Shown one piece after another: positions 6,886 to 40,519 of a stretch of 40,519 nucleotides of DNA. Within the stretch, counting starts at the first letter, position 1; every line of letters starts with the position of its first letter. The notes beneath the pieces are model-generated. The model had not been told where the DNA came from, ran no database searches, and worked only from the letters and a program-made list of their open reading frames with translations. The stretch comes from a virus, in IMG/VR virus record IMGVR_UViG_3300043772_000414, positions 1 to 40,519 of that record; one strand, 5' to 3'. Both the position numbers and the translations under genes were made by a program.

Positions 6886-9800
6886 CTACTTGTCCTTTTT
6901 CGGTCCCGCGAGGAAGTCGTAGACGCCCACGTCTTCACCCTCGAACATCGCGTCGGCCGCCGAGATCACCCGGTTGACCTGCGTCGCCGGCACGCCGGCC
7001 CCGAACCCGAGCGCCGACACCAGCGCCTTGAGCGCCTTGGCGTCGAGCTCGCCGTTGTCGATCGCCTCGGCGATGCCCTTGACGGACGCCCCCAGCGCCT
7101 TGCCGAACCCGTCGAGCGGGGTCGGCTTGTAGCCAAACCCCTCGGCCAGCCCGGCGAGGTCGCGCAGGAACGGCAGCGACGACATCGCGTAGACCGCGGC
7201 CTTCGCCGCCAGGAAGCCGGCCAGCGTCTCTTCCTTGTCCTCGTCCGGCCCCTGCCGCTTGACGAGCGCGTCGACCATGACAGGCACCGCCATCAGGATG
7301 AACGCCCGCGCGGCCAGCTGCGGCACGTCGCGCACGCCGCGCACGTTGCCCAGCGCCTGGCGCTGCAGGTTGTAGAGCAGGTTGAAGTACGAATAGAACA
7401 TGGTCAGCGCGGTCATCACGCCGCGCTCGCGCTGGATCGCCGCGAGATCCTTGATCCCGCCGGCGGTCTGGCTCGTGCGCAGGATGTTGTCGGCGGCGTC
7501 GACGGCCTCGTCGGTCGTCGCCCCGCGCGCGATGGCCTGGTCATAGGCCGCGAGCCACGTCGGCAGGTCGACCATGTAGAGCTGGATGCCGGCGATGCCC
7601 ATCAGGCTGAAGCGCTGCATCTGGGACCACGCCCCGCGCTTGCCCGACAGCTGCTGCAGCGCGTGGCGGATGTCGCGGTCGGTGTTCTGCAGCCGGTGCC
7701 GCATCTCGCCAGACGCCGCGAAGACCTGCGCGCGCACCTGCGCGGGCGACGCGAGGTAGCGCACCAGCCCGACCAGCATCGCGGTCGTGCCGCGCCGCGG
7801 CGAGTACCCGCCGCCGGGCGCGCGCGACAGCGCGTCGATCGAGTTGGCGAGGCCGAACACCTGCGCGACCATCGTCGTGTAGCTCAGGCCCATGATCGCC
7901 ACGGTCGCGTTGCGGCGCATGGCCTCAACGAGCCGGCCGCCGATCGACGTCGGCGCCACCGGCTGGCCGTTCGCCGCGAGCTCCTGCACCCAGGCCTTGA
8001 GCGTGTCGTAGAGCTCGGGGCCTACGCGGTTGTTGAGCGCGCGCACCACGCGCTGGCGAGCCAGCAGCTTGCGCGCGATGCGCACCGGTTCGTAGTGCGT
8101 GATGAAGTGCGCGGTGCGCTCGATATGGTTGGGCAGCGCCGTGATGTCGAGCAGCACGGGCGCCGAGAACCCGGTGCGCGCCTTCGTCATGCTGGAGTTG
8201 ACCGACGCGCGCACGACCGTCGACTGCATCGCCTCGAGCGCCGTCTTGCCCTCGATGTCGCGCGCCTGCACCGAACGCGCGGGATCGTACATCATCGGGA
8301 AGTAGCCGCCGCGCAGCGACTGCCCGTAGCGGGTCTCGATCGTGCGGGCATCGACGCGCTCGGGCGCGACGCCGTTCTCGCGGCGGTAGACCTCGCGCAC
8401 CTGGGGCCACATCGCCTCGAACGCATCCCAGACCTCCTGCACGAAGGTCCACTCCTCTGCCGTCAGGTTGGCGAGCGCCTCGTCGACGCCAGCCACCGTG
8501 AACGGCGTCGCGCCATCGGTGACGTCCTTCTCCGAGCCCTCGATCATCTTCTCGAAGTTGCTTTCGTTGCCGACGTTGAGCGCCATCATGATCAGGTCCG
8601 ACCGCGCGAACGTCCGTCCGAGCAGCGGGACCGTGATGCGCTCGGCCAGGCGAGAGCGCGTCGGCATGTTGTCGAGCGCGTCCATGACCCGCTGCGTCAC
8701 CCGCAGCGTCATGTCCTTGCGCGCGGTCTCCGCGTCAGCAAACGGCTTGAACAGGAACCTCCAGAGCGGCCCCATGCGCTGGCCGTCCACCTGCTCGACA
8801 AGGAGCTCGACCTTGCGCAGCGCAGCGTCGAACGACGCGAGCTTGCTGCGCGCGCGGTCGAGGACGCCGGGTTTCTGCTCGACGGCGCGCCGCGCCATGC
8901 GTGGCAGCTGCGGGTTGCGCTCGGCGCTCGCGGCGATATCGTTCGCCATCTCGGAGATGGCGAACTCCTCGCCGTCGATCAGCGCCGTCTTCGCGAGCCG
9001 CCCCTGCGCCTCCAAGTTCTTGATCGTGTCGCGCAGCGTGCGGAACTCGTCGAGCGTGAGCGCCTGGTAGTTGGTCCGCTCGTCCGCGTCGATGATCCGC
9101 TGCGGCATCTCGATCGTCGCGCCCGCGTCCTGGCGCTGGCGCTCGATCCAGTCCAGCACCGCCTGCATCTCGAGCCGCACGCGCGTGCGCTCCATCAGCT
9201 GCGGCCCCAGCTGGTAGGCGTCGAGGATCGTGCGGATCTGGTCGACGTAGCCGGCCTCGAGCGCCGGGAACTTGGCCGCGGCGCGCGTGAAGCCGGACAG
9301 GTAGTCGACCGCCTTCTCGACCTCGGCCCGCGCCTTGTAGGCCTCGTGCGCCATGTAGAAGTTCAGCGCCTGCTGGAACTTGGCCTTGAGCGCCTCGGTG
9401 CGGTCGCCCGACGCCAGCGCCCGGTCGGCAGCGCGCCCAGCCTTGCGCTCGGCCATCAGGAAACGCTGCGGCTGGAGCTCGGAAACCTTCCGGCCGGCGA
9501 TGCGCTCGCGCGCCCACTGGCGCAGGAACGCAGGCTTGAGCTTCGTGCCGCCGCCGCTCTGCAGCGCGTTGAGCTCTGCGATCAGGACGTCGCCGCGCTT
9601 GTCCGTGTGCGCGCTCTCGACCGCCTTGTCGACCGCCGTGCCGTCGACCTGCATGTCGCCGTGCCGCTCGCGCATCCGCTCGTCGGTCTCGCGGTCGATC
9701 GTCGTTTCGACGCCGTTCGTGTTCATCATCGCGATGAGCATGTCGCGCCCGCTGTCGAACCCGTAGAAGGACGCCACGACGTCAGGGTGCGAGCCGCTCT

Positions 9801-12800
9801 CGCCCTGGGCCGTCGCGTAGACCGTGCGGCCCTTCACCCGCGGCAGCCTGGACAGCGACTTCTGGTTCTCGAGCAGCGCCACGACCGCCTCGCGGCTCAT
9901 GCGCGGCTGCACCAGCCCCGCCGGCAGGGGCTGGCCGTCGGGCATCTTGCCCGCCGCCAGCGCGTGGATGGCGAGGAACACCGGCCTCGCGCGCACCTCG
10001 GCCGCGACCTCTTCGCGCAGCTTGGCCCGCTCCTCGCGCCACCACGCCGCCTTCTCGCGCTCGACCTCGCGCATGTGCCGGCGCAGCTGCTCGGTGCGCG
10101 CAGCCTCGCCTGCCGCCATCACTGCGGCTTGGTAGGCCGCGAAGCGCTCGGGAGACATGCTGGCCTCTTCGGGCGAGGCGAACATGGCGCGCAGGTTGTA
10201 TTGCTGCTCGACAAGCGCGATCTCCTCGTCGGTCGCGAGCATGCGGTCCATGACCGACTTGACCTCGGGCGAGAACCGAACGGCCAGCTGCTCGGAGCCG
10301 AGCCTGCGTTGCAGCGCCGCGTAGATGGACACCAGCCACGCGCGGAACCTGTTGAAGGCGTCCTGCAGCGCCACGCTCGGCGCCAGCCCGGTGCGGAAGT
10401 AGTCCTCGGTGCCGCGCGCCCACTGCTCGTGCGCGGCTCGCGCCAGGTGCCCCGACCATTTCGCTCCGCGCGGCATGCCGGCAAGACCGCCAGCCTTCGC
10501 CATTGCCTCGACCTGGTCGTCGGTCATGGCCTCGAGCGTCGTCACGCTCACGGCGTCGCCGGCCTTGCGCGCGTAGGCGATCGCCTCCTGGCGGATCGCG
10601 CCGGCATTGGACGCGAACCAGTCATTGACCGTCTGGAGATCCTGCGCCAGCTGCGGGCGCCCGGCCCCATAGGCAGCGGCGTCGGCGCGCAGCTGCTCGA
10701 GGTAGAGGTGCCCGCTCTCATGCAGAAACGTCGACCGGTCGGCGCCAGCGCCAAGACGGATGATGATCTGGCCGGGGTTGAACTGGATCGAGCCGCGGGC
10801 GGGTTGTTCAAGCGTCCCACGCCCAGCCGCCGCCGACATGCCCGCGCGCATCTCGCCGACCTGCCGCGCCTGCTCAATGACCGTCGCGATCTCCTCTGCG
10901 ACCGCGTCCTGATCGGTGTCGATCTGCCCGTCGAGCCACAAAAGGGCGCGATCCAGCATGCGCGCGCGGGGGTCGTCGCGGTCGGCGTTGCTCAGCTTGT
11001 CGAGCACCTTGCGCGCTGCGGCCGGGTCGAACTCGCCGTCGCGGATGCCGTCGATGTCCTGCGCCAGGGCGTCCAGCTGGTCTTCGACGTCGGCGAAGAC
11101 GCCGCGCTCAAGCGGCGCGCCGGACTGCTCGAGCGTCTGCGCGCCTTCGTCGCCGCCTAGGAAATCTTCGTCGGCGATGTCGACTTCTTGAAGCGCTGGC
11201 TCAGCTGCAACATCAAGGCGTCCCGCAGATCCTCGTTCGTCTCCAAGGCCTGCACCATCGGATCGCTGCTGTCCACCATCCGAAACTTGTCGGCTGGCGA
11301 TAATTGCGTCGGCTGTTGCGCGCGCGATGTCTTCATAGCTGATGTCCGCCGTCTGGCGGGCTCCCATCTGACCGTAGAGACGTTTCTCATAGTACCAGAG
11401 CACCGCCTGGATGTCCGCAACCGTGAGGTCGACCCCGCGCCGGGCCAGCATCTTCTGCGCGCGCATGGTCGTCGCGATCATGAAGGTGCGGTCGGTCGCG
11501 TTGAACGGCTGATCCTCCAGCTGCTCGAACGCCGCCTTGTAGAGGGTGTTCGCCGCCTTCTCGATCTCGGTGCCTTCCTTGAAGCCCTTGGCCTTGTAGG
11601 AGGCGACGTAGTCGACGGTCAGCGCCAGCGCCTCGTCGTCGGTCATCATCTCGACGGGCTGGTTGAGCCGCCGGTCCTTGGTCACGAGCTCCTTGAACCG
11701 CTGCAGGCCGGCCTCGGTCGGCTTGGTCAGCAGCGTGCCGCGGTAGCGGTTGAAGGTCCGCGACCACCACCGGTCCATCGTCAGGTAGCCGGTCGACCCC
11801 ATCAGGTTCGCGAAGAACGCCCCGAGTTTGGGTCCGAACACGGAGGCCGACACCGGCATGGTCGTGTCGACGGTGTAGCCGGTCGAGAACGAGACGCCAG
11901 CCTTCTCGGCCATGCGCTTGAGCTCGCCGACCTTGGCCTCGGCCAGCAGCATCGTGCGCAGCTGGTCGAACCCCCCATCCTGGGCCAGGCGCGCGATGCG
12001 CTGGATGTTGCGCACCATGCTGGAGTTGCGCTCGCCGCCGAGCTTGAACTCGAAGTCGAACGACCCGGTCTGCCGGAACGCTTCATAGGCGATCGCCGCG
12101 AAGCGCAGGTTCTCCTTCACCTTGGCGCCGTCGGACGTCACCGCGATCAGCGCAGTCAGCAGCGTGCGTGCAGCGTCCCGGCTCGGCAGCAGCTTGACGC
12201 CGGGCGGCGCGTCGCCGGTGGTCCTCGCCGTGTCGTCGACGAGCTCGGGGAAAGCGGCGCCCAGCCTGTCGAGCGCCTTCTGGAACTTGATCGAGTACCA
12301 GCCGACCGGAGACTTCTCGGGGTTGGCCTTCGCCTGCTCGACCTCGAAGAGGATCTCCTCGACCATCCACGAGGCAAGCCGGCGCTCGGCCTCGGGCGAC
12401 CTGTCGTCGGCCTCGATCGTCCCGTATTTCTGCCGCTGGCGCGCCTCGAGCGCGGCCGCGACCTCGCGCGTCTTGTATTTCTTGCCGGGCTCCAAGCCGA
12501 AGCGCTTGAGCGTCTCGCGCTTCCCGCGCAGCGGCACCGTCTGCTCCATGACGTTGCCCTGCACCGCCCGCGCCTCGAGGTCGGCCAGTTCCTGCAGCGC
12601 GTCGCGGATCTCGGCCGCCGAGCTCGTCACGATCGACAGCGCGTTGCCGCTCATCTCGTTGTAGCGCTCGATGTCCGCCTCGAGGTTGCGGATGTCGTTC
12701 TCGCGCCCGTCGAGGCGCGTCTGCTCGTCGGCCGTGCGCCGCGGGTTGCCCGCGAGCTCGTCGCGCACCGCCGCCAGGATCGCGGCCTCGGAGACGTAGT

Positions 12801-15036
12801 TGCCGGTGCCGTCGTCCTCGTCGGCGGTGAACCAGGGCATTTCGGCCAACGGCAGGTTGTCAGCCGCCTGGCGCCCGCCGACCTTGAACAGGCCCGGCCG
12901 GGTCTTCGCCGTGACGCCCAGCGCCTTGAGCTCGCCGGCCAGCGGCGAGTTGGGGTCGACGCCCGTGCGCGCCAGCAGGTCGAGGATCGGCGTCTTGGGC
13001 AGACGCAGCGTGTCCGGCGAGCGCGCCTTGTCGAGGATGATGTCGATCTCGTCGACCCGCCGGCCCATGTCGCGCACGCGCTCGATGCGCAGGTTGTCCT
13101 GCTGCCAGAGCTCGAGCGGCGACACCCCGGCTCGCTCGGCGCGCACCGCGTAGCGCTGGGCGGTCAGGACAGCGGCGTAGCGCGCCGTGTCGCGCGCCTC
13201 GCCCGCGGCCATCATCATGCGCTCGACCTCGGTCTCGATCCGAGCGGCCTCGACCCGCCTGCCGCTCTCCATCGAATCGAGCAGCGAGGCCATGTCGTCG
13301 ATGGACTCCCTGAGCCCCGTGGCCTCCCACTCCTTCGCCTCGGCCTCGGTCATGCCGTCGACGCCCAGCCGGACGTGCTCCGTCAGTCCGGCGCGCGTGG
13401 CTTTGTTTGTGAGAATGTGCTGCGCGAAGGCCTCGGGCGTCATGTGGACGTCGCCGCCCACGGCCAGCGCCTCGGCCATCTGCTCGTCGGTCACGCCCAG
13501 GTTCCGCATGAGCGTGGCCTGGTCGACCGCCTGCTCGCCGCCCTCGGGCGCGCCCTGGAAGAACTCCTGCAGCCGGGCCGCAGGGATTGCGATTGTGTCA
13601 ACGCCCTGGTCGCGCAGGACGGCGCCGGTCACCTCGCCAAAGCGCTCAGGATCGCGCTGGGCGAGCTTGGAGAGGTCGGCCGCATCTCCGGCCTCCCTGA
13701 TCGCTTCCGCGTCCCTGGCGGCTTTGGTGGCCCTCCTGCGCTCGGCCATAGCCTGCATGGCCGGGCCCGGCAGCCCCAGAACGGACGTCGCCTTCGCCGC
13801 CTGCACGCCGGCGTCGATCACGCGCTCGACCGTGTCCTCGAGCCCCGCCCCCTTGAAGGCCCCGCCGTCGGCCATCTTGGCGACCTCGGCGAAGGACGCC
13901 GTCGAGAGCTCCTGCAGCATCTCGGTCAGGCTTTCGATCGCGATGCCCTCGGCATAGCGCTTGCCGAAGGTCGCCAGCGTCGCGGCGAAGCTAGGGCTGG
14001 TCGCCGCGGCTTGGCCGATCGCGGCCGCCACCTTCTTGCGCCCGCCCAGCTGCGCGAGCTCGGCGATGCCCGGCACGCGCTTGAGGATCGCCGACAGCCC
14101 GTAGGCCTCGAGGCCGGCGTTGACCGTCCCGGCCAGCATCGCGGCGCCGCGCGCCACGTCGTTGTCGAGGGGCCTGCCGTCGGAGGTCTTGAGCCCGCGG
14201 TATTCGATGAACGCCAGATAGGTCTCGAGCTCCCACGCGGCCTCGAGCGCCCCGGCCCGCCCGCCGACCGCCAAGCCGGTCGCGGTCGCCGCCGGCACCG
14301 TCACGAGCTCCTCGGGCAGCGCCGCCTGCGGGCCCAGCTGGCCCAGCAGGGCCGCGCCGCCACCGAAGGCTATGCCGGTCTGCAGGCCGCGCTGCAGCGC
14401 CTTGCCCAGGATCGACCCCATGATCGGGATCTGCTCGCCCGCCGCCGACAGGTAGGCGTCGGTCTCCAGCTGCTCCTGCGCCTTCTCGAGCTCGCCCACG
14501 CGCGCCTCGTCCTCGGGCGTCGCCTGCCCCCAGAACAGCCGCCGGCCGACGTCGCGCAGGTCGGTCGTGATCATGCCGCGGCGGAACCCCTTGGCCGCGC
14601 CCTCGGCCTCCTCGACCGCCGTGTCGCGGATCTTCGACCAGGTGCGCTCCAGCCAGCTGAGCGTCTCCGCGTCGTCGTGCGCGACCTTCGCGAAGTCAGG
14701 GTTGGAGAAGAACATCTGGACGCGCGGCGCGCCCTGCAGCGCGGCCTCGGCCGCCTGCCTGCGTACCTCGCCCTCGACCTGGTCCTCGGCGCCCTCGACC
14801 GCCGGCAGCGGCAGGCCGCTCGCGCGCGACAGCGCCTGCGCGCGCGCCGCCTGGTCAGGATTGAGCCCCTGCACCGCGCGGAGGTTGGCGCCCGCCTGGC
14901 CTGCGGTCAGGTCGCGCAGCACCTTGTCGTAGTCGGTGTCGCCGGGCGCCGGCCCGGCCGGGGAGGTGTCCGGCTTGCCCTTGGGCTGGGGAAACAGGCT
15001 CGAAGCGAGCGCGTCATAGTCGACGTCATCGGCCAC
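6886..15036 (-). CDS. Giant internal virion / DNA-ejection protein (T7 gp16-like position), 2716 aa
   Basis: By position after gp13-, gp14- and gp15-like genes this is the large ejection protein that enters the cell with the DNA. Start is GTG 15036 with GGGAGG six bases upstream; it overlaps the previous gene by 11 bases. Visible parts: a glycine/alanine-rich amphipathic region (about 190-260) that may insert in membranes; long charged helices; a zinc-protease-like HESGH at 1439-1443 in FLHESGHLYLEQL; and a C-terminal region (about 2390-2716, with QLYMVDLPTWLAAYDQAI and MTALTMFYSYFNLLYNLQRQ) resembling the LPD38 domain of large polyvalent phage proteins. I see no lytic transglycosylase motif. 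The protein is about twice the length of T7 gp16 (1318 residues). Enzyme activity of the HESGH region is inferred from the motif only. Confidence 0.8.
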   Translation of the reverse strand: MADDVDYDALASSLFPQPKGKPDTSPAGPAPGDTDYDKVLRDLTAGQAGANLRAVQGLNPDQAARAQALSRASGLPLPAVEGAEDQVEGEVRRQAAEAALQGAPRVQMFFSNPDFAKVAHDDAETLSWLERTWSKIRDTAVEEAEGAAKGFRRGMITTDLRDVGRRLFWGQATPEDEARVGELEKAQEQLETDAYLSAAGEQIPIMGSILGKALQRGLQTGIAFGGGAALLGQLGPQAALPEELVTVPAATATGLAVGGRAGALEAAWELETYLAFIEYRGLKTSDGRPLDNDVARGAAMLAGTVNAGLEAYGLSAILKRVPGIAELAQLGGRKKVAAAIGQAAATSPSFAATLATFGKRYAEGIAIESLTEMLQELSTASFAEVAKMADGGAFKGAGLEDTVERVIDAGVQAAKATSVLGLPGPAMQAMAERRRATKAARDAEAIREAGDAADLSKLAQRDPERFGEVTGAVLRDQGVDTIAIPAARLQEFFQGAPEGGEQAVDQATLMRNLGVTDEQMAEALAVGGDVHMTPEAFAQHILTNKATRAGLTEHVRLGVDGMTEAEAKEWEATGLRESIDDMASLLDSMESGRRVEAARIETEVERMMMAAGEARDTARYAAVLTAQRYAVRAERAGVSPLELWQQDNLRIERVRDMGRRVDEIDIILDKARSPDTLRLPKTPILDLLARTGVDPNSPLAGELKALGVTAKTRPGLFKVGGRQAADNLPLAEMPWFTADEDDGTGNYVSEAAILAAVRDELAGNPRRTADEQTRLDGRENDIRNLEADIERYNEMSGNALSIVTSSAAEIRDALQELADLEARAVQGNVMEQTVPLRGKRETLKRFGLEPGKKYKTREVAAALEARQRQKYGTIEADDRSPEAERRLASWMVEEILFEVEQAKANPEKSPVGWYSIKFQKALDRLGAAFPELVDDTARTTGDAPPGVKLLPSRDAARTLLTALIAVTSDGAKVKENLRFAAIAYEAFRQTGSFDFEFKLGGERNSSMVRNIQRIARLAQDGGFDQLRTMLLAEAKVGELKRMAEKAGVSFSTGYTVDTTMPVSASVFGPKLGAFFANLMGSTGYLTMDRWWSRTFNRYRGTLLTKPTEAGLQRFKELVTKDRRLNQPVEMMTDDEALALTVDYVASYKAKGFKEGTEIEKAANTLYKAAFEQLEDQPFNATDRTFMIATTMRAQKMLARRGVDLTVADIQAVLWYYEKRLYGQMGARQTADISYEDIARATADAIIASRQVSDGGQQRSDGAGLGDERGSAGRLDVAAEPALQEVDIADEDFLGGDEGAQTLEQSGAPLERGVFADVEDQLDALAQDIDGIRDGEFDPAAARKVLDKLSNADRDDPRARMLDRALLWLDGQIDTDQDAVAEEIATVIEQARQVGEMRAGMSAAAGRGTLEQPARGSIQFNPGQIIIRLGAGADRSTFLHESGHLYLEQLRADAAAYGAGRPQLAQDLQTVNDWFASNAGAIRQEAIAYARKAGDAVSVTTLEAMTDDQVEAMAKAGGLAGMPRGAKWSGHLARAAHEQWARGTEDYFRTGLAPSVALQDAFNRFRAWLVSIYAALQRRLGSEQLAVRFSPEVKSVMDRMLATDEEIALVEQQYNLRAMFASPEEASMSPERFAAYQAAVMAAGEAARTEQLRRHMREVEREKAAWWREERAKLREEVAAEVRARPVFLAIHALAAGKMPDGQPLPAGLVQPRMSREAVVALLENQKSLSRLPRVKGRTVYATAQGESGSHPDVVASFYGFDSGRDMLIAMMNTNGVETTIDRETDERMRERHGDMQVDGTAVDKAVESAHTDKRGDVLIAELNALQSGGGTKLKPAFLRQWARERIAGRKVSELQPQRFLMAERKAGRAADRALASGDRTEALKAKFQQALNFYMAHEAYKARAEVEKAVDYLSGFTRAAAKFPALEAGYVDQIRTILDAYQLGPQLMERTRVRLEMQAVLDWIERQRQDAGATIEMPQRIIDADERTNYQALTLDEFRTLRDTIKNLEAQGRLAKTALIDGEEFAISEMANDIAASAERNPQLPRMARRAVEQKPGVLDRARSKLASFDAALRKVELLVEQVDGQRMGPLWRFLFKPFADAETARKDMTLRVTQRVMDALDNMPTRSRLAERITVPLLGRTFARSDLIMMALNVGNESNFEKMIEGSEKDVTDGATPFTVAGVDEALANLTAEEWTFVQEVWDAFEAMWPQVREVYRRENGVAPERVDARTIETRYGQSLRGGYFPMMYDPARSVQARDIEGKTALEAMQSTVVRASVNSSMTKARTGFSAPVLLDITALPNHIERTAHFITHYEPVRIARKLLARQRVVRALNNRVGPELYDTLKAWVQELAANGQPVAPTSIGGRLVEAMRRNATVAIMGLSYTTMVAQVFGLANSIDALSRAPGGGYSPRRGTTAMLVGLVRYLASPAQVRAQVFAASGEMRHRLQNTDRDIRHALQQLSGKRGAWSQMQRFSLMGIAGIQLYMVDLPTWLAAYDQAIARGATTDEAVDAADNILRTSQTAGGIKDLAAIQRERGVMTALTMFYSYFNLLYNLQRQALGNVRGVRDVPQLAARAFILMAVPVMVDALVKRQGPDEDKEETLAGFLAAKAAVYAMSSLPFLRDLAGLAEGFGYKPTPLDGFGKALGASVKGIAEAIDNGELDAKALKALVSALGFGAGVPATQVNRVISAADAMFEGEDVGVYDFLAGPKKDK

Positions 15037-20645: not shown

Positions 20646-21244
20646 TCGCGCCCCCGCACCCAGGCCGCTTCGCGCGGCCCGCGATCGAAGCCCTCGGTGC
20701 CATTGGCCCCCGCAGCCTGCGCGACGTGCGCCTGGTAGGACTGCATGGCGAACTTGGCGAGGTCGGCCTTGCCCGTGAGCGAGAAGGCGATGCGCGAGGC
20801 GAGGCGCCAGGCCAGCGCATCGACGAACAGCGTCGTGAACCTCGAAGGGTCGGTGACGTCGAAAGTGTAGGCGAGCGTCGCCTCTTCCATGTCGGTCAGG
20901 ATGGACGTCGTCTGGCCGTCGTCGGTCGACACGACGGAGAACGGCACGACGTCCGAATAGGGACCGAGCGGGTTGACGATCTCGCGCGCGCGGATGCAGT
21001 CCGACGGGTACTCGTAGCGGTAGGCCCAGTCGTCGTAGGGGTTGGTCTCAAGGACCGCGAGCGCCTTGCGCTTGCGCGCGAAGTTCCAGTTGTAGGCCTC
21101 GAGCGTCTGCACGCGGGACCAGTCGTACCAGCGATTGCAGATCTTCGCGGTTGGCGAGGCCTCGGTCAGGCTTTCGATCGTCGCGTCGGCGCCGATGTAG
21201 TCGAGCGCCATGTTCGCGATCTTGACTGAACTGATCGTCGCCAT
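20642..21244 (-). CDS. Tail tubular protein A / adaptor (T7 gp11-like), 200 aa
   Basis: Begins MATISSVKIANMALDYIGAD, with the NMAL..IGa start typical of gp11-like adaptor proteins; then CNRWYDWSRVQTLEAYNWNFARKRKAL and WAYRYEYPSDCIRAREI, both hallmark stretches of the family. The protein is mostly helical, about 200 residues, the usual length. It should bind the portal and recruit the nozzle. The gene begins one base after the stop of the 82-residue upstream protein and overlaps the nozzle gene by four bases. Confidence 0.9.
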   Translation of the reverse strand: MATISSVKIANMALDYIGADATIESLTEASPTAKICNRWYDWSRVQTLEAYNWNFARKRKALAVLETNPYDDWAYRYEYPSDCIRAREIVNPLGPYSDVVPFSVVSTDDGQTTSILTDMEEATLAYTFDVTDPSRFTTLFVDALAWRLASRIAFSLTGKADLAKFAMQSYQAHVAQAAGANGTEGFDRGPREAAWVRGRE

Positions 21245-21245
21245 G

Positions 21246-21494
21246 TCACCGCCTCCTGCGCCTGCGCGCTCGGATGATCCAGTCGTTGCCCTCTGGAACT
21301 GGCGGCGGGGCGCCCGGCAACGTCAGTTGCGCGAGCCCGTCGCCGCCTTGCTGGCGGATTGAAAAGGGCAGCGCCGTCGAGAGCCGCGCGCCGGCCAGCG
21401 GCGAGCCGAACGCGAGCAGTCCCTGCACCGGGCCCGCGCTCCCCGTCGCCCTGACGAGCTGCGACGGAGCGCCTCCTGCGTAGAGCGAGACCAT
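21246..21494 (-). CDS. Small hypothetical protein (82 aa)
   Basis: Starts at 21494 in the stop codon of the 713-residue structural gene (TGATG) and ends one base before the gp11-like start, so it fits a coupled structural operon. The protein has a glycine/proline-rich middle and ends in a run of arginines (IIRARRRRRR). It resembles short particle or tail accessory proteins in similar loci but I cannot name a family. The tight junctions on both sides are the main support. Confidence 0.65.
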   Translation of the reverse strand: MVSLYAGGAPSQLVRATGSAGPVQGLLAFGSPLAGARLSTALPFSIRQQGGDGLAQLTLPGAPPPVPEGNDWIIRARRRRRR

Positions 21495-23635
21495 CAGGCC
21501 ACCGTCAGCGTCGCGTAGAGGTCAACGCCGCTCGGCAGGCTGGCGCTCGGCACGAAGCGCCGCCGCGTGTTCAGCGCGTCGCTGCCGAGCCCCGCGGTCC
21601 ACGCCGTGCCGTTCCAATACTCGAAGGCGCCGTTCGTCGTGCCGCTGCTGGCTTGCGTCAGGACCAGCGCGTTGGTGTCCGCGCGGTAGACGTTGATCGT
21701 GTGCACCGTCAGCGCCGCGCCGAACAGCGCCGACTGGATGAACCCGAAGGTGCCGTTCGACCCGTCGAAGTCGCCGAAGTTCCAGCGGTACTGGCTCGGC
21801 AGCGCGTCCGAGGTCTCGTAGAGCAGCGCCAGCGAAAGCACGCGCGCGGGCAGCATGATCACGCCAGCCGTGCGGAACAGGAACGCGAATTGGATGTTCG
21901 CCGCCGTCGACACGCCCGACAGGTCGCCGCTCTGGGGGACGTCGGTCCACGAGCCGCTGTTGTCGTCGATCCCGCTCGTCCGGTACTGGACGCGGAAGAG
22001 GTCCGGCGCGACGCCCATCGTGTCGTCGCCCAGGTTCTCCATGCAGTTGACCAGCACCCGGTAGAACTTGGCCGGCGCCGCCCCAAGCGCGAGCTTGGGG
22101 CAAACGATCCGGTTGGGCACATCCGCCAGGAACCCGAGGTCGGCCGCAAGCGGATAGGCGCTCATCGCGTTGAGCGTGGTCGTCGTGCCGGGGTTGTAGA
22201 TCCAGAACATCCAGCCGTCCTCGACCCAGACGAAGGGCGAGGCGTTGGCCGGGTAGTGAACGAAGATCGGGCTGTCCGTGTCGCGCAGCGCAGACGGCGT
22301 CTGGCTGGCCGTGCACGACGAGCGGCGGTCGAGCTGCTGGCCGCCGGTGTAGTAGTCCGTGACGTAGACCGAGCCCGACGTGCCCGACGACGTCGCGATC
22401 ACGAGCTTGTCCAGCGACCCGGCGACATCCATCGAGATGAAGCCTGCGCTCGCCAGGTTCGTGACGGTGCCGCCTGGCGGGACCTCGGACATCGAGTCCG
22501 CGACGAACGTCGTGCTTGCTGCTACGACCGACGCCAGCGGCACCCGCAGGATGCGGCTCAGCGTCATCAGGTACAGGCATGCCACGCCCGCGCCCGCGCC
22601 GTGCGCCAGCGTCGCCACCTGGCCGTTGTTCGCCTGCGAGATGTTGCCCGTCACCGCCTGCGCGCCGGTGATCACGATGTCGGAGCCGGTCAGCACCGCC
22701 GCGCCAGCGGTCAGCGTCAGCGGCGCGCGGATGTTGTAGCGGTAGAGCTGGAGCGACGTCGTCGCGCCCTCGGTCGAGTAGACGTACTGCTGCGTCCAGG
22801 TGTCCCTGTCGCCCAGCGCGCAGCCGCCGATCACGTCGTTGGTGATCGTCGCCGCGTCCTTCAGCCAGAAGTTGGCCTTGATCTTGTCGACGGTCGTCGC
22901 CGCGGGGATCGCCACCGCCGGGTTCTGGAAGTCCGCGAACTGGAGCCCCTTGGTCACGAACAGGCCGCCGTTCGTGACCGTCGCGTTCGTGTTCGCGTGC
23001 ACCAGCATCAGGTCTTCGATGACGTAGGGCGTGCCGGCGGCGATCGTGCCAGCGCCCGCCGTCAGCGTGATCGACGTGCCGCTGCCGATCGCGCTGATCT
23101 GATACCAGGTCGTGATCTGCGTCGGGTCGGTCGAGCCGAAGCCGATGCGCGAGCCGACCGACAGGCCGGTCGCCCAGGCCGTGCCGCTGCCCGTCACCGC
23201 GGTGCCGCTCACCGTCACCGTGCCGGTCGTGTACGCCTCGAGGATCGCGCGGAAACCGCGCACCGTGTGCGCCGTCGCGGTCGGGAACGTCAGCGTGACA
23301 GCGCCGCGCAGCGTGTAGGTGTTGGTCGACGGCACCCAGGTCCAGAGTTGCACGCGGCGGGTCGCCGCTGCGGCAGCACCGTCAGAACCGAAGACCCAGA
23401 ACAAGTCGTCGGTGATCTTGATCGGGTGCACGAAGTTCGACGGGATCGCCAGCGACGACTCGCCGAAGTTCGCCACGCCAACCGGCGCCGGCCCGATGAA
23501 CTTGTCGACGTCGCCAGCGCCGAGGTTGAACTGCCCCGTGTGCTTGCCGCGGTTGATCTTGGTCGCGTCGTAGGCGCCGCCCACGGCGACCTGCGCCAGC
23601 GAGCCGTTGAAGACCTGCTCGATCGCCGCCTTCAT
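21494..23635 (-). CDS. Large minor structural protein (713 aa), unknown family
   Basis: Beta-rich and low in charge, with many T, S, G, A and V residues, as in phage decoration or fibre proteins. It opens MKAAIEQVFNGSLAQVAVGG and has a region of antiparallel repeats around YTTGTVTVSGTAVTGSGTAW (a common linker in virion proteins) and a C-terminal part containing VLTQASSGTTNGAFEYWNG. It sits between head and tail-tube genes and is preceded by a small gene whose stop overlaps this ATG (ATGA). Likely a minor capsid or tail protein exposed on the particle. I cannot see a catalytic motif. Confidence 0.7.
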   Translation of the reverse strand: MKAAIEQVFNGSLAQVAVGGAYDATKINRGKHTGQFNLGAGDVDKFIGPAPVGVANFGESSLAIPSNFVHPIKITDDLFWVFGSDGAAAAATRRVQLWTWVPSTNTYTLRGAVTLTFPTATAHTVRGFRAILEAYTTGTVTVSGTAVTGSGTAWATGLSVGSRIGFGSTDPTQITTWYQISAIGSGTSITLTAGAGTIAAGTPYVIEDLMLVHANTNATVTNGGLFVTKGLQFADFQNPAVAIPAATTVDKIKANFWLKDAATITNDVIGGCALGDRDTWTQQYVYSTEGATTSLQLYRYNIRAPLTLTAGAAVLTGSDIVITGAQAVTGNISQANNGQVATLAHGAGAGVACLYLMTLSRILRVPLASVVAASTTFVADSMSEVPPGGTVTNLASAGFISMDVAGSLDKLVIATSSGTSGSVYVTDYYTGGQQLDRRSSCTASQTPSALRDTDSPIFVHYPANASPFVWVEDGWMFWIYNPGTTTTLNAMSAYPLAADLGFLADVPNRIVCPKLALGAAPAKFYRVLVNCMENLGDDTMGVAPDLFRVQYRTSGIDDNSGSWTDVPQSGDLSGVSTAANIQFAFLFRTAGVIMLPARVLSLALLYETSDALPSQYRWNFGDFDGSNGTFGFIQSALFGAALTVHTINVYRADTNALVLTQASSGTTNGAFEYWNGTAWTAGLGSDALNTRRRFVPSASLPSGVDLYATLTVA

Positions 23636-23814
23636 GCCGGCTCTCCATCAGCCGTGGCGACCACCTGCTCCGCGAGGAACGCGCAGATGGGTCCGTTGGT
23701 GTCGACGCGGCGCCGGCACGGCACGAAGTCGTGCGGCGCGTAGTCCCCGCCGACCACGACCTCATAGGAGCTGTTCGCGGCCACGACGTCGCCGGCGGCG
23801 ATTGCGTGCGCCAC
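23632..23814 (-). CDS. Small hypothetical protein (60 aa)
   Basis: MAHAIAAGDVVAANSSYEVV, then GDYAPHDFVPCRRRVDTNGP and a C-terminal FLAEQVVATADGEP: a short beta-rich protein with no family I can name. It starts three bases after the coiled-coil gene and its stop overlaps the next ATG (ATGA). The composition and the two junctions indicate a real gene, probably a minor virion component. Confidence 0.65.
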   Translation of the reverse strand: MAHAIAAGDVVAANSSYEVVVGGDYAPHDFVPCRRRVDTNGPICAFLAEQVVATADGEPA

Positions 23815-23817
23815 TGC

Positions 23818-24324
23818 TCAGCCTCCGAGCCGAGCCTTGATCGCCTCGAGCTCGCCCTTGAGCACGGCCAGCCGCTTCGCGACATCGTCGTGCTCGCGCT
23901 GAACTTCGACGATCGCCTGCTGCGTCGCGCGCAGCGAAGCCTCGGCCGCAGCCTTCGTGGCGGCCGCAGCGTCCGTGATGCGCGCCGCCTCGCGGCGCGC
24001 GTCGTCGACGAACTTGTCGCCGTCTTCGCGCGCCTGCGCCTCGATCATGCCGGCCTTCGCCGCGCCGGCGGCGATCGCCGCCTTCGCCGCAGCATCGGCC
24101 TTGATCGCGTCGGCCTTGGCAGCCGCCGCGCGCGCGTCGGCCTGGTCGGCCTCGGCGATCGCGCGATCGCGCCTGGCCTCGGCCTCGCTGGCAGCTTGGA
24201 GGATCGAGCCATGCTGCTCGAGGAACTCCATCGCGCGCTTCAGCCCGTTGAACGTGCGCAGAAACCGCGCGACGTGCTCGGCAGCCTCGAGGAGCTCGGC
24301 CGGGGCCGGGATTTGCTTTGCCAT
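23818..24324 (-). CDS. Alanine-rich coiled-coil protein (168 aa)
   Basis: After a short N-terminal helix (AELLEAAEHVARFLRTFNGL) nearly the whole chain (about 40-165) is a long heptad-like helix rich in A, E, K, D and Q, with stretches such as DRAIAEADQADARAAAAKAD. No cysteine, no membrane segment. Proteins of this kind next to minor capsid genes serve as spacers or assembly factors; here the role is only inferred from location between the two structural genes. It starts one base after the end of the 125-residue gene. Confidence 0.7.
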   Translation of the reverse strand: MAKQIPAPAELLEAAEHVARFLRTFNGLKRAMEFLEQHGSILQAASEAEARRDRAIAEADQADARAAAAKADAIKADAAAKAAIAAGAAKAGMIEAQAREDGDKFVDDARREAARITDAAAATKAAAEASLRATQQAIVEVQREHDDVAKRLAVLKGELEAIKARLGG

Positions 24325-24325
24325 G

Positions 24326-24703
24326 TCACTTGCCTCCGAACCGCACGATGAGCGACACCGTCAGGCTCGTCGTGCCATCGCCGGCCGTCACGCGCGGGCG
24401 GATGAACCGCACGAGCTCCGAGATGGCCTCGATCTTCGCCGCAGTAAACGACAGCGCGTTGCCCTGCGGGTCCGTGAGCGGCGCGTAGTTGCTGCCGTCG
24501 ATCGACCCCTCGATCACCACGGCGCCGCCGACGCCGAAGGTGCCGGCGACCTGCACCGCGCGGTCGGGGAACCCGACCCACGACACCTCGCCGCCGACGT
24601 CGCTGCCGGCCTGCGTCAGGTTCGCCCAGGTGATGACGCGCGACGATGCGTTGCCGATGCCCTCGTCGCTGATGTTCTGAATGCTCGGCGCGATCGTCGC
24701 CAT
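24326..24703 (-). CDS. Minor structural protein (125 aa), conserved in BPP-1-like loci
   Basis: A beta-rich protein containing PDRAVQVAGTFGVGGAVVIE, then GSNYAPLTDPQGNALSFTAA and RFIRPRVTAGDGTTSLTV. This block (VQ..GTFG.GG.V...GS.DG..Y..L.DPQGN.l) recurs in phages with BPP-1-like heads, downstream of the cement protein, usually labelled hypothetical or structural. The ATG at 24703 has GAGGTGA upstream and follows the terminator at 24717-24747, so it is the first gene past that termination signal. Confidence 0.7.
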   Translation of the reverse strand: MATIAPSIQNISDEGIGNASSRVITWANLTQAGSDVGGEVSWVGFPDRAVQVAGTFGVGGAVVIEGSIDGSNYAPLTDPQGNALSFTAAKIEAISELVRFIRPRVTAGDGTTSLTVSLIVRFGGK

Positions 24704-36493: not shown

Positions 36494-36895
36494 TCACGAG
36501 TATGCCGACGGGTTCACCGTCGGCGGCCTTGATGGTGCGCGCCCGCGGGCCGGCGCCTCTGCCTGGTCCTCGAAGCGCTTGTCCCCCATGAGCCGCGCCC
36601 ACGAGGCCTCGGGGTCGCCGAGCTTCCGGTGCTGGCGCACATGGGATCGGAACTCGACGCCCATGACCGCGCGGAAGCGATAGATCGTCGAGCCATAGAC
36701 GCCCGCGCGCTCGACCGTCCCGACCTGCTCGAGCATCCCGTAGCGCTCGAGCCAGCGGATCGAATTGCCCAGCGAGCGCACAGTCTGGCGCGGCGCGAAG
36801 ACGGCGACGTCGCGCACGTCGAACTCGCGGCCGTGCTCGACCGCCCAGGCATGGATCCGCCGCATGATCTGCGTGCCGCGCTGCCTACCAGTCAT
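36494..36895 (-). CDS. Probable winged-helix protein (133 aa)
   Basis: A helical N terminus (RRIHAWAVEHGREFDVRDVA) is followed by VRSLGNSIRWLERYGMLEQV and a hairpin-like GVYGSTIYRFRAV: the order helix, recognition helix, wing suits a winged-helix DNA-binding domain at about 10-75. The C terminus is basic and proline-rich. It overlaps the helicase stop by 11 bases. Possible roles are transcription control or a partner of the helicase. No family named. Confidence 0.6.
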   Translation of the reverse strand: MTGRQRGTQIMRRIHAWAVEHGREFDVRDVAVFAPRQTVRSLGNSIRWLERYGMLEQVGTVERAGVYGSTIYRFRAVMGVEFRSHVRQHRKLGDPEASWARLMGDKRFEDQAEAPARGRAPSRPPTVNPSAYS

Positions 36896-38468
36896 AGCGC
36901 ACGATCTCGGTGTATTTGCCGGCGGGGCGCACCGCGATCCGGCGCGGCGTCGGCAGGCTGTCGGCCACGAGCAGCGCCTCGGCGACGGTCGTCGGCACGG
37001 GCTGGCCCGGCGCGCGCTTCTGCCACCAGCTGACCGCCTTCTGCCGCGCGTAGCCCGTGTGCTCGACGCAGATCCACTCGCGGTGCGGGACCATGCCGCA
37101 CCGGTACTCGACGCGCATGGACGGCGTGCCGCCGCCCATCTTCGCGTGCAGCGCGTAGCTGACCTCGCTCACGTCGCACCAAGTGTCGCGGATCTGCGTC
37201 GACAGCACCGCGTCCGTCGCGGCCTCATGCGCGAGCTTGGGCTTGGGAGCGGGGAACTCGTGGCCGCAGTTCGGGCAGACGCGCGTCGCCGTCGCCACGA
37301 TCGTCGAGCACTCGGGGACCGGGCACACCTTGACCGGCGCCTCGCCATCGCCGCCCTCGCCCGGCGCCGACACCTTGATGCGGTCGATCGGCCCGTGGCG
37401 CCGGCAGTTGCCCGCGAAGTCGAGCAGCAGGCAGTCGTCCTTCCCGCTCGCGAGCCGCGTGCCGCGGCCGACCATCTGAACCCACAGGCCGGCAGACTTG
37501 GTCGGCCGCAGCGCCGCGATCAGGTCGACGCCTGGCGCGTCGAACCCGGTCGTGAGCACGCTCATGTTGGTGATCGCGCGCAAGGCTCCCGACTTGAACG
37601 CGCCCAAAATCCGGTCGCGCTCGGGGCCGGGCGTCTCGCCGGTCACCGCCTCGCAGCTGATGCCGCGCTCGCGGATCGCATCGCGGACGTTCCATGCGTG
37701 CCGCACGCCGGCGCAGAACACCAGCCACGAGCCGCGGTCCTGGCCGTGCGCGACGATCTCCTCGACCGCCGCGCGCGTGATCTCGTCGACGTCGACCGCT
37801 GCCTCCAGCTGCTTCTGGATGAACTCGCCGCCGTAGGTGCCGACCTTCGACACGTCGAGCTTGGTGCGCGGCTCCTTCGGCCTCACCTCGGTCAGGTATC
37901 CCTGCTGGATGGCCTCGAGGATCGACATCTCGTAGGCGATCGAATCGAACATCCGGCCCTCGCCCTGGTGCAGCATGCCGCTGTCGAGCCGGTAGGGCGT
38001 CGCGGTGAAGCCGATGATCTTGAGCGCCGGGTTGATCTGGCGCATGTCGGCGAGGAACTTGCCGTACATGGTGCCGGCGTCACGCGGGATCAGGTGCGCC
38101 TCGTCGACGATGATCAGGTCGCAGCGCTGCACTGTGTAGGCACGCCGCCAGATGGACTGGATCCCGGCGCAGGTGATCGCCTGCCCGACGTCCTTCCGCC
38201 CGAGCCCCGCCGAGTAGATCCCCGCCGGCGCGTCCGGCCAGTGCCGGACCAGAGCCGCGTAGTTCTGGGCTATGAGCTCGCGCACATGCGTGAGCATCAT
38301 CACCCGGCTGTCGGCCCAGGCCTCGAACACGCCGCGGATGAACTCCGCGATCACCACCGACTTGCCAGTTCCCGTCGGCAGCACGATCAACGGGTTGCCG
38401 GTCTCGCGCATGAAGTAGTCGTAGAGCGCGTCGATCGAGGCGCGCTGGTAGGGGCGCAGGTCGATCAT
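36885..38468 (-). CDS. SF2 DEAH-type helicase with zinc ribbon (527 aa)
   Basis: ATP-dependent helicase or translocase. Motif Q-like RPYQRASIDAL (5-15), Walker A PTGTGKS (31-37), DEAH (122-125), TATP (155-158), VLTTGFD (304-310) and motif VI QMVGRGTR (331-338). After the two RecA-like domains comes a zinc ribbon (C382, C387, C398, C401) and a C-terminal domain of about 110 residues. It acts in recombination or replication with the adjacent PD-(D/E)XK nuclease, whose stop overlaps its ATG (ATGA). Similar phage proteins accompany RecB-like nucleases. Confidence 0.95.
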   Translation of the reverse strand: MIDLRPYQRASIDALYDYFMRETGNPLIVLPTGTGKSVVIAEFIRGVFEAWADSRVMMLTHVRELIAQNYAALVRHWPDAPAGIYSAGLGRKDVGQAITCAGIQSIWRRAYTVQRCDLIIVDEAHLIPRDAGTMYGKFLADMRQINPALKIIGFTATPYRLDSGMLHQGEGRMFDSIAYEMSILEAIQQGYLTEVRPKEPRTKLDVSKVGTYGGEFIQKQLEAAVDVDEITRAAVEEIVAHGQDRGSWLVFCAGVRHAWNVRDAIRERGISCEAVTGETPGPERDRILGAFKSGALRAITNMSVLTTGFDAPGVDLIAALRPTKSAGLWVQMVGRGTRLASGKDDCLLLDFAGNCRRHGPIDRIKVSAPGEGGDGEAPVKVCPVPECSTIVATATRVCPNCGHEFPAPKPKLAHEAATDAVLSTQIRDTWCDVSEVSYALHAKMGGGTPSMRVEYRCGMVPHREWICVEHTGYARQKAVSWWQKRAPGQPVPTTVAEALLVADSLPTPRRIAVRPAGKYTEIVRYDW

Positions 38469-39367
38469 CGCCCGTCGTCCTCCCAGCCGTCATAGATCAC
38501 GGTGTCTCCGCGCACGTCGACCTGCTCGCGCGGCACCAGCCCTGGGATGTAACGATGGCAGGGCAGCGCCTCGCGGCCGGTGCCCATGTCGTGGCCCAGC
38601 GCGCACGCCCAGGCGCCGCCGTCGACCGGCGTCGAGTGCATGCAGGTCCGGCAGTTGCGCTCGGGCAGGTCGGCGCCGTGGCACAGGTTGCGGTAGTCGC
38701 ACCAGCGGCACAGGTAGAAGGCCGGATCCTCCGACATGCGCGGCGGCGGGCCGTCCGCGCGCACGATCCGCCGGGCCTTCTCCACCAGCCGGATTGCCTC
38801 GCCCGCGTCGTAGTGGACGCGCTCGCAATGCAGGTCGTCGTCGTCCTTGTTCACGGCGATGTAGAGAGCGCGCGTCAGCGACGCGAGGTGCATGTAGACC
38901 TGCATCTGCGCGTAGTGCTCGGGCTTGCTGCCCTGCACGCCCTTCTTCTGCAGGTCCGCGAAGGACTTCGCCGAGTGCGTCTTGAACTCAAGCAGGTGCC
39001 AGGTCGCCGGCGCCTCGGGCACGCCCAGCCCGACGCCGTCCATCGACCCGCCGAAATGCCCCTCGGCATCGCGCACGGTCCACTGCCGCCCGCTGTCGGG
39101 ATCGACGTCCATGACCGTCATGCCGATCCGCCGAAGGTCGGCGACGATGCGCGGCTCCTCGAGGTGTCCGCGCGAGAACAGCCGCAGCAGCCGCCCGTCA
39201 TGGCGAACCGTCAGCGCCCAGCGGAAGCTGTACCAGAGCTGCCGCTCGCACTGCCGGCCGATCACCGACGCGCCCAGGTGGGCGCGCCGGCTGTCTTCCT
39301 GACGCTCCGCGATCGCGCGGAAGATCAGGCTGCGCGTGTCGTTCACGCGCGGCGGGATGGGTGCCAT
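38465..39367 (-). CDS. PD-(D/E)XK exonuclease, Cas4/AddB-like, with two cysteine clusters (300 aa)
   Basis: RecB-type nuclease core with the D110 (GSMDGVG) and E127-x-K129 (LLEFKTH) catalytic residues and QMQVYMH helix (154-160). C40 (QCERQLWY) together with C220, C223 and C229 (YLCRWCDYRNLC) makes the four-cysteine set that holds an Fe-S cluster in Cas4 and AddB. A second set, C239, C242, C255, C270, could bind zinc. It probably resects DNA ends for recombination. ATG 39367 has GGGAG about 6 bases upstream; further upstream in-frame codons are noise. Confidence 0.9.
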   Translation of the reverse strand: MAPIPPRVNDTRSLIFRAIAERQEDSRRAHLGASVIGRQCERQLWYSFRWALTVRHDGRLLRLFSRGHLEEPRIVADLRRIGMTVMDVDPDSGRQWTVRDAEGHFGGSMDGVGLGVPEAPATWHLLEFKTHSAKSFADLQKKGVQGSKPEHYAQMQVYMHLASLTRALYIAVNKDDDDLHCERVHYDAGEAIRLVEKARRIVRADGPPPRMSEDPAFYLCRWCDYRNLCHGADLPERNCRTCMHSTPVDGGAWACALGHDMGTGREALPCHRYIPGLVPREQVDVRGDTVIYDGWEDDGR

Positions 39368-39459
39368 GTCTCTCCCCTCGCGAGCGCCTTGAGGATGGCG
39401 CGCGTGGCCGACCACCATAGTGGATCATCCCACGCGCGCTCGGGTTGCGTCTTTGTCAT
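39343..39459 (-). CDS. Small hypothetical protein (38 aa)
   Basis: Reads MTKTQPERAWDDPLWWSATR, then AILKALARGETWHPSRRA. ATG 39459 has GGAG six bases upstream, placed at the end of the pentamer array, and starts one base after the array frame's stop (TGA-G-ATG). It overlaps the nuclease gene by 25 bases in another frame. Size and junctions support it moderately. Confidence 0.5.
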   Translation of the reverse strand: MTKTQPERAWDDPLWWSATRAILKALARGETWHPSRRA

Positions 39460-39460
39460 C

Positions 39461-39622
39461 TCAGTCTCCATGCCTCGCCGTGCCTGGCCGTGCCCAGCAA
39501 TGCCCAGCCTTGCCAGGCCACGCCCTGCCGCGCCTTGCAGCGCCCTGCCTCGCCACTCCTTGCCATGCTCGGCCACGCCTTGCCCCGCCAAGCCAAGCCG
39601 GACAGTGCCGTGCAGTCTGCAT
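39461..39622 (-). CDS. Pentamer-array reading frame (53 aa), Arg/Gly/Ala/Trp-rich
   Basis: The ATG at 39622 follows directly on the TGA of the upstream gene, and the frame ends TGA 39461-39463 one base before the next ATG. Its sequence starts MQTARHCPAWLGGARRGRAW and continues as five-residue blocks such as VARQG, AARRG, KAGHC, WARPG and TARHG. The period comes from the GGCNN DNA array and not from amino-acid selection alone. Because 5 and 3 are coprime, other frames through the array are open too, so translation is not proved by openness; the exact fit between neighbours is the argument. There is no Shine-Dalgarno, so it would need reinitiation. Confidence 0.4.
   Translation of the reverse strand: MQTARHCPAWLGGARRGRAWQGVARQGAARRGRAWPGKAGHCWARPGTARHGD
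39470..39614 (-). repeat. GGCNN pentamer array, 29 units
   Basis: Read on the transcribed strand, 145 bases divide into 29 five-base units with no phase slip; 23 have the exact form GGCNN and six carry one or two changes (for example TGCTG, TGCAA, GGAGT, AGCAT, TGTCC, TGCAC). The two N positions vary freely. It lies between two early genes. The RNA would have GG pairs every five bases with three-base spacers. Confidence 0.95.
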
Positions 39623-40228
39623 TCACGCCGCGCGCGCCAGGTCGAGCGCGTCGCGCTCTTCCCACCGCACGACAGCGAACCGTCCGTATGGTCCCTTCCG
39701 CGCCGGGCGGAAGTCGCCCAGCCCGACGCGCGAGCCGGCATGATCAACGATCCGGCGCATCAGCTTCGCGTTGAAGTTCCCGGTGTCGAGGCGCATCTCG
39801 AACGCCAGGCGCCAGTCGTCGAACATCGGCCGGTGCGTGAGCACGCGACCCTTGGTCGACGGGATGACGACCGCGCGCGTGTCGACGCGCCACGGCTGCT
39901 GGTGCTGGATCTCGATCTCCGCAGCCTCGATGTCGAGGAAAGCGAACAGCATCGACGACGCCGCCGTCGTCACCTGCGCCTTGCCGACCTTCTCGAAACG
40001 ACCGCCGTCGATCAGGCACCGCAGCAGGTTCGGCTGCGGGATGATCGGCGTCTGGCCGCCGGCGCCGCCCAGGTAGAGCTTCTTGCTCGCGATTTCGAGC
40101 GGCGTGCCTCGATCTTGCGCAGCGCTCGCCGAGCGCGAGCCAGACGAGGCCGCCTGCGCGGCCTCGTCGTGGAAGCGGTTGCAGATCAACGGAGTGATGC
40201 CGCTGATCTCGACGGAGATGGTGATCAT
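39623..40228 (-). CDS. Conserved phage early protein, unknown function (201 aa)
   Basis: Begins MITISVEISGITPLICNRFH and ends with RRIVDHAGSRVGLGDFRPAR, then KGPYGRFAVVRWEE. The start (strand, then GITPL..nRF) and the late glycine-rich stretch G..vGlGdfRP...GpyGrF recur in an early-phage protein family found beside DUF669 or recombination genes. The combination faintly recalls Cas7/RAMP folds, but no catalytic residue identifies it. Residues about 28-45 are serine/alanine-rich and probably a disordered loop. It starts one base after the DUF669-like stop. Confidence 0.7.
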   Translation of the reverse strand: MITISVEISGITPLICNRFHDEAAQAASSGSRSASAAQDRGTPLEIASKKLYLGGAGGQTPIIPQPNLLRCLIDGGRFEKVGKAQVTTAASSMLFAFLDIEAAEIEIQHQQPWRVDTRAVVIPSTKGRVLTHRPMFDDWRLAFEMRLDTGNFNAKLMRRIVDHAGSRVGLGDFRPARKGPYGRFAVVRWEERDALDLARAA

Positions 40229-40229
40229 G

Positions 40230-40519
40230 TCAGCGCCTCCACGGCGGGGTCGCGCCGGCCGCCTTGGCCGGTGCCGCCGCCCTGGCCGGCGCGGCCTGCT
40301 GGACCGGCGCCTGCTGCGCCGGCTGCGCCGCGCGCTGCATCTGCACGACCTGGCCGCCGGCCGCCGCGCGGTAGTTCGCGACCTCGTTGCTCGGGCCGTA
40401 GTCGCCCTGGCCCGGCCGCACCTTGACCTTGGCGACCAGCGTGCAGCCGTGGAGCTCCTCGCTGTCGGCCACGTTCAGCTTGCCGACCGCGTGGCAGATG
40501 CTCGACAGCGTGCGCTCGG
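40230..40519 (-). CDS. DUF669-like protein, C-terminal part (cut by the right edge)
   Basis: The frame is open to the window edge. It reads ERTLSSICHAVGKLNVADSE, then ELHGCTLVAKVKVRPGQGDY and GPSNEVANYRAAAGG, ending in a low-complexity A/Q/P tail and PPWRR. The pattern I..a.G......d...L.G......v....g......N....yr is that of the DUF669 C terminus, a family near phage recombination genes that may bind single-stranded DNA. A GTG at 40472 also occurs but is not the true start, since the conserved part lies upstream of it. Confidence 0.75.
   Translation of the reverse strand, partial: ERTLSSICHAVGKLNVADSEELHGCTLVAKVKVRPGQGDYGPSNEVANYRAAAGGQVVQMQRAAQPAQQAPVQQAAPARAAAPAKAAGATPPWRR

Follow-up and report, generated by a model that had tools for sequence, protein, structure and literature searches.

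A GGCNN Pentamer Array Beside a Predicted Guide-Binding Protein Gene in a Phage Genome Is Very Probably a VIPR Guide Tract

The locus at 39461–40229 of the window (the whole 40,519-nt viral stretch analyzed here, IMG/VR record IMGVR_UViG_3300043772_000414) is very probably a VIPR (Viral Interference Programmable Repeat) system, in which a GGCNN pentamer array is the guide tract beside the guide-binding protein Vipr, and neither a gene nor a plain microsatellite. The array was matched to the guide RNA of such systems (vrRNA) because the ORF upstream of it encodes a protein with a predicted RAMP fold and homology to Vipr of Escherichia phage SUSP1. Computed from the sequences were the array itself, the homology and fold of Vipr, the tie in position and strand between the two, the hypervariable NN against a conserved GGY, guide-target pairs with a 1-nt skip in relatives, and a clean empty site.

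VIPR of the Escherichia phage SUSP1 type was described only in 2026, in a preprint (PMC13142463, doi 10.64898/2026.04.26.720920; PDB 36pp) and is proposed as the ancestor of CRISPR effectors. According to the main text of the preprint, a small (~20 kDa) phage-encoded Vipr of an ancestral RAMP lineage acts with vrRNAs of alternating GGY and NN; the GGY is conserved, the NN are the guide and pair with dsDNA, and one base is skipped per unit. The vrRNA contains 9–16 repeats followed by a conserved 3′ tail. An accessory vap gene is typical and not universal, and transcription, RNP assembly, DNA binding and repression are shown there only for SUSP1-type systems (PMC13142463).

The features of the locus and its surroundings are:

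40230–40517, minus: DUF669-like/ssDNA-binding-type gene, C-terminal part, flanking the cassette upstream and running off the window (phrog_2300, phrog_6015)
39461–40229, minus: whole predicted VIPR cassette (vipr plus array), 769 bp, absent as one clean block from IMGVR_UViG_3300042453_000903
39623–40228, minus: vipr gene, 201 aa, RAMP-type (Csm3/Cas7-like) predicted guide-binding protein, directly upstream of the array (homology and predicted fold)
39461–39622, minus: 53-codon ORF of the initial annotation, an incidental open frame over the array (ORF list and simulation)
39470–39609, minus: GGCNN pentamer array, 28 units, predicted vrRNA tract (phase score far above chance)
39465–39474, minus: array end GGCAT GGAGA, leading into the next ATG, analogous to GGCAA-GGA array ends recurring in relatives
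39343–39459, minus: 38-aa ORF (MTKTQPERAWDD...), directly after the cassette (ATG overlapping the DUF669 stop in the empty site)
38465–39418, minus: Cas4-domain (PD-(D/E)XK) recombination exonuclease, downstream, a phage core gene also present in the vipr-less sister phage; its real start is probably the ATG at ~39367
36885–38468, minus: DEAD/DEAH helicase, downstream, a phage core gene also present in the vipr-less sister phage

Structure of the Pentamer Array

On the minus strand, from 39609 to 39470, the array was shown to consist of 28 consecutive five-base units with zero phase slips, beginning 14 nt past the vipr stop on the same strand as vipr. Its phase score of 31 compares with a maximum of 7.5 in 60 order-2 Markov copies of the whole window, and of 15 in 2000 such copies of the array region itself. 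Twenty-three of the 28 units start with an exact GGC, the remaining five with TGT, AGC, GGA, TGC and TGC; position 2 is G in every unit and position 3 is C in 26. The last two bases had been called free in the initial annotation, and they are indeed near-random (entropy 1.84 and 1.98 bits for positions 4 and 5). Its perfect 5-base phase was also borne out, but GG-C is not present in every unit, and 28 units were counted instead of 29: the supposed 29th (GGAGA, 39465–39469) looks, from its letters, like a Shine-Dalgarno sequence for the next ATG.

A neutral pentanucleotide microsatellite arisen by replication slippage is extremely unlikely. Local unit duplications do occur in a few relatives (e.g., GGCAC runs at locus L139), but slippage and mutation would blur all five positions equally, whereas here GGC is kept and NN is near-random. 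Moreover, arrays of this kind accompany vipr on its own strand, and contain guides with targets (see below).

The 53-codon frame exists as annotated, open from just past the stop codon of vipr and ending immediately ahead of the following ORF, and comparable ORFs carry hypothetical-protein annotations in mycobacteriophages. A stop within a GGCNN array needs NN = TA or a mutated unit, so that open frames are to be expected; in simulation, 91% of 28-unit GGCNN arrays kept one or more frames open throughout. In addition, the period of conservation is 5 and not 3, six of 36 long arrays of relatives are closed in all three frames, and the variable positions can be read as guides to DNA targets that are in frame. 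A genuine coding function for this ORF, with a short, repetitive R/G/A-rich protein as its product, is thus highly improbable.

It is likewise very improbable that the array is a G-quadruplex or other folded RNA element acting on operon expression. A GG tract does recur every five bases, and the array folds somewhat better than shuffled sequences (z -2.43), but such an element would not account for the constant C or the freely varying NN, nor for the 21% of units that lack the first G, the association with a RAMP protein and the target matches. The earlier suggestion of an RNA element was therefore right in kind, while G-quadruplexes, ribosome pacing, a copy-variation hotspot and a basic peptide found no support; a guide RNA explains the array best. 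An Rfam search of the array region matched no family, and a terminator and promoter scan of the region was uninformative, with no promoter found. A hairpin 3′ of the array (GCGCGCGUGG...CCACGCGCGC) falls inside the ORF that follows; folding of this stretch did not exceed that of shuffled sequences (z -0.60), and no structured tail was found.

The vipr Gene and Its Product

The 201-aa ORF matched a hypothetical protein of phages SUSP1 and SUSP2 (tblastn, E 5e-5) and the PDB entry 36pp, 'SUSP1 Vipr protein', both with the single sequence (phmmer, E 5.1e-7) and in a profile search (E 2.6e-11). PADLOC and Pfam assigned no name to the protein. Its AlphaFold model (pLDDT 77) had Csm3/Cas7 RAMP proteins as best structural matches (Foldseek E 4e-5), and the VIA match to Csm3 covered 167 residues (Z 11.8, rmsd 4.7). 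As to the thumb domain, the Csm3 match is full-length, but model confidence is low at residues 20–24 and 28–37. The glycine-rich C-terminal VGLGDFRPARKGPYGRF (VGLGDFRP...KGPYGRF) resembles the RAMP G-loop; G164, G168 and G181 are invariant even across the Viprs of SUSP1, LESphi2 and Gordonia. Two peptide patterns run against the GTDB species genomes found no Vipr of the clade to which the window protein belongs.

A Clean Empty Site in a Near-Identical Phage

The record IMGVR_UViG_3300042453_000903 aligns with the window along most of its length at ~97% identity but lacks exactly positions 39461–40229. The blastn breakpoints (39460/40230) were confirmed by alignment of the empty site, where the 38-aa ORF starts at an ATG that shares bases with the DUF669 stop (TGATG), and no vipr was found elsewhere in that record. 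The cassette thus sits between two genes of the early operon, and its exact joint absence from a ~97% identical phage shows that vipr and array are acquired or lost jointly, in a single 769-bp cassette.

A second region, window 21244–24692, is either missing from the vipr-less sister or strongly diverged there, and holds a 713-aa tail-fibre-like gene, so that the two phages may also differ in host range. The window further contains a 2716-aa ORF (6886–15036, minus), a giant virion-type protein matching the uncharacterized family phrog_9880, and near it 2.3 copies of a 66-bp repeat (6105–6258).

Arrays and vipr Genes in Other Phages

Starting from Vipr, same-strand arrays were found adjacent to vipr in 24 of 28 clade loci, a set that includes the window and some near-duplicate contigs. 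Starting from the repeat, 122 loci were collected (120 viral contigs with 7 × GCCNN and two annotated phages found by array similarity); a Vipr homologue was detected with the starting profile in 84 of these, compared to 0 of 62 control loci. In this repeat-first set 316 arrays lay on the vipr strand and 9 on the opposite one, with a median distance of 17 bp between vipr and the nearest array and a median length of 12 units. The same array finder, run on SUSP1 as a positive control, returned GGT-NN arrays both upstream and downstream of its vipr.

On the stretch examined, 38 of the 122 repeat-first loci (e.g., L005, L060, and L076) showed no detectable Vipr homologue; their contigs may be truncated, their Viprs may have diverged, or the arrays may act in trans.

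The initial annotation had proposed to look for such arrays next to DUF669 or RecB-like genes. They were found to adjoin vipr genes instead, and besides vipr no real neighbour gene was present in more than four of 25 related loci, which makes DUF669 and the Cas4-like nuclease incidental flanks. Two larger clusters of neighbour genes among these loci were rejected because they consist of antisense shadow ORFs that overlap vipr or the arrays. No conserved accessory gene was thus found in the clade, and this would fit a VIPR type without one, since the main text of the preprint has six vap genes for seven types (PMC13142463).

Of the 1732 clade units, 97% have G at position 2 and 79% at position 1, and position 3 holds C in 88% and T in 9%, whereas the entropies at positions 4 and 5 are 1.88 and 1.97 bits. 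Relatives with vipr DNA 81–96% identical usually showed NN identities of 0.45–0.65, with some blocks shared. At the 3′ ends in relatives GGCAA-GGA array ends are common, as well as AT-rich spacers or hairpins. The arrays of L167 (4713–4997), L162 and L166 continue in phase into a GC-rich terminator-like hairpin, which suggests a dedicated non-coding transcript at these loci.

Two vipr loci with 93% DNA identity, each with its own arrays, are present on contig IMGVR_UViG_3300021475_000019 (L150 and L155). In Mycobacterium phage Donkeykong (NC_051648.1), gene 48 (36870–37256), annotated as a hypothetical protein, overlies a pentamer guide array, and the adjoining 'hypothetical' gene 49 is a Vipr homologue. 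Similarly, the hypothetical-protein annotation g34 of Cyanophage Cy-LDV1 lies over a pentamer guide array with a Vipr homologue adjacent. Arrays like that of Donkeykong were found in ~28 mycobacteriophage records.

Guide-Target Matches in Relatives

The NN strings of 103 arrays were compared with the whole clade-phage contigs (arrays masked), allowing skips of 0, 1, 2, or 3 nt. At a score of at least 17, the numbers of matches were 0, 10, 1, and 0, respectively, and shuffled guides gave none at any skip. The ten matches with a 1-nt skip derive from five guides of 9–15 units each; where the matched strand is the coding one, NN reads codon positions 1–2 and the wobble base is the one skipped. 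A serine integrase/resolvase gene (Pfam Resolvase, E 1e-26) is the target of one guide, and an endonuclease-like gene with similarity to Holliday-junction resolvases that of another.

The guides of IMG/VR phages 3300021475_000019 and 3300050821_006219 match each other's genomes reciprocally. The two reciprocal guides sit in arrays opposite to the vipr strand and kilobases from vipr (L228, ~11103, and L233, ~8897, each on its reverse strand).

All five guides matched the genome of the phage carrying them worse than that of the rival: the rival matches were 27/28, 28/30, 26/28, 22/24, and 20/22, compared to best own-genome matches of 21/28, 19/30, 20/28, 19/24, and 15/22, respectively. Judged from the printed codons, the own-genome matches of four of the five look like alleles of the same gene as the rival target. 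That the own allele matches worse than the rival's suggests self-avoidance by divergence.

Search for a Target of the Window Array

Exact-pattern scans of viral sequences and genomes, using exact patterns of 8–9 units (units 5–12, 10–17, 10–18, 15–22, and 18–25), revealed no target for the window array; the only matches were edge-limited, all stopping at or near the pattern edges. The longest, of 10 units in a gene of Nitratireductor that is ThiF-like from its peptide, was rejected, being chance-expected in such a collection and showing no extension. Inside the window the best match (21/28) lies at position 16963, minus strand, within a gene for a virion protein of 752 aa and in codon phase. 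It was not accepted as the array's own target, a score of 21 also being reached by one of 40 shuffles and thus indistinguishable from chance; the corresponding gene of the vipr-less sister gave the same score. At L167, the array contains a 14-unit guide followed directly by about five in-phase units and the hairpin; relatives show 14 guide units and then about 4–5 in-phase tail units. By analogy, the active guide of the window array is probably formed by units ~10–24, and the 5′ units would be a second or older guide.

An empty target search and five of 28 units with a non-GGC start could also be expected of a decayed VIPR remnant, whose guide has no target by now or is no longer expressed. 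We consider this unlikely: vipr is intact with every clade-invariant residue present, the deviation rate of the array equals the clade average (G at position 1 in 79%), and a second metagenome contig carries an identical array and an identical vipr.

Relation to Known Systems

TIGR-Tas systems are phage-linked and use tandem-repeat guide RNAs with a non-contiguous layout, and Tas proteins have a Nop5/Nop58-like RNA-binding core. Compared at the level of this general description, the window locus shares the phage-linked, non-contiguous tandem-repeat guides, but its protein has a predicted RAMP fold in place of the Tas core.

With class 1 CRISPR-Cas effectors (Csm3/Cas7, types III and VII) the window Vipr shares its predicted fold. 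Nevertheless, the window has neither CRISPR repeats and spacers nor other cas effector genes, and its guide follows a gapped pentamer code instead of a contiguous spacer. An identity as class 1 CRISPR-Cas was therefore rejected: the locus contains only vipr and pentamers, and its Cas4-like gene is a phage exonuclease that is also present in the vipr-less sister.

SUSP1-type VIPR resembles the window locus in its phage-encoded small RAMP protein, to which the window Vipr is homologous, in adjacent same-strand GGY/NN tandem repeats, and in the 1-nt skip with the skipped base at the codon wobble position, which was reproduced in the clade of the window Vipr. The window Vipr is, however, only ~21% identical to SUSP1 Vipr over the alignment, and the clade units are GGC and not GGT. 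The clade also differs in having no conserved accessory gene and in array ends that, instead of a distinct folded tail, look like GGCAA-GGA units kept in phase, and its tracts reach 71 units (28 in the window) compared to the 9–16 reported in the preprint's main text (PMC13142463).

Proposed Mechanism and Implications

As in SUSP1-type systems, the array would give rise to a non-coding vrRNA read from the same strand as vipr, along which Vipr subunits are expected to bind, one per GGC unit. The NN dinucleotides would be left free to pair with dsDNA by the rule NN-x-NN-x, one target base being skipped per unit, and the complex would occupy a gene in a competing phage and repress it. The vipr gene and its array together make up one 769-bp cassette, gained or lost as a block in an early operon.

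We tentatively propose, as a possibility falling somewhat short of probable, that the clade represents a minimal VIPR type (one protein and guides, no accessory gene) that acts as an exchangeable 'rival-allele' module, which some near-identical phages carry and others lack. Its guides would be tuned to alleles of competing relatives, while the carrier's own allele of the same gene would have drifted at the positions read by NN, giving sequence-based self/non-self discrimination and reciprocal targeting between phages.

The window locus places VIPR in a distant Vipr clade, where the gapped 1-nt-skip code is independently reproduced. Beyond the main text of the preprint (PMC13142463), guide-target pairs with an allele contrast and a clean cassette difference are new. 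The results also suggest that many repetitive phage 'hypothetical proteins', such as Donkeykong gene 48, are really guide-RNA arrays. The near-identical phages with and without the cassette form a natural pair and a ready-made genetic test, and the contrast between own and rival alleles makes phage self-avoidance testable.
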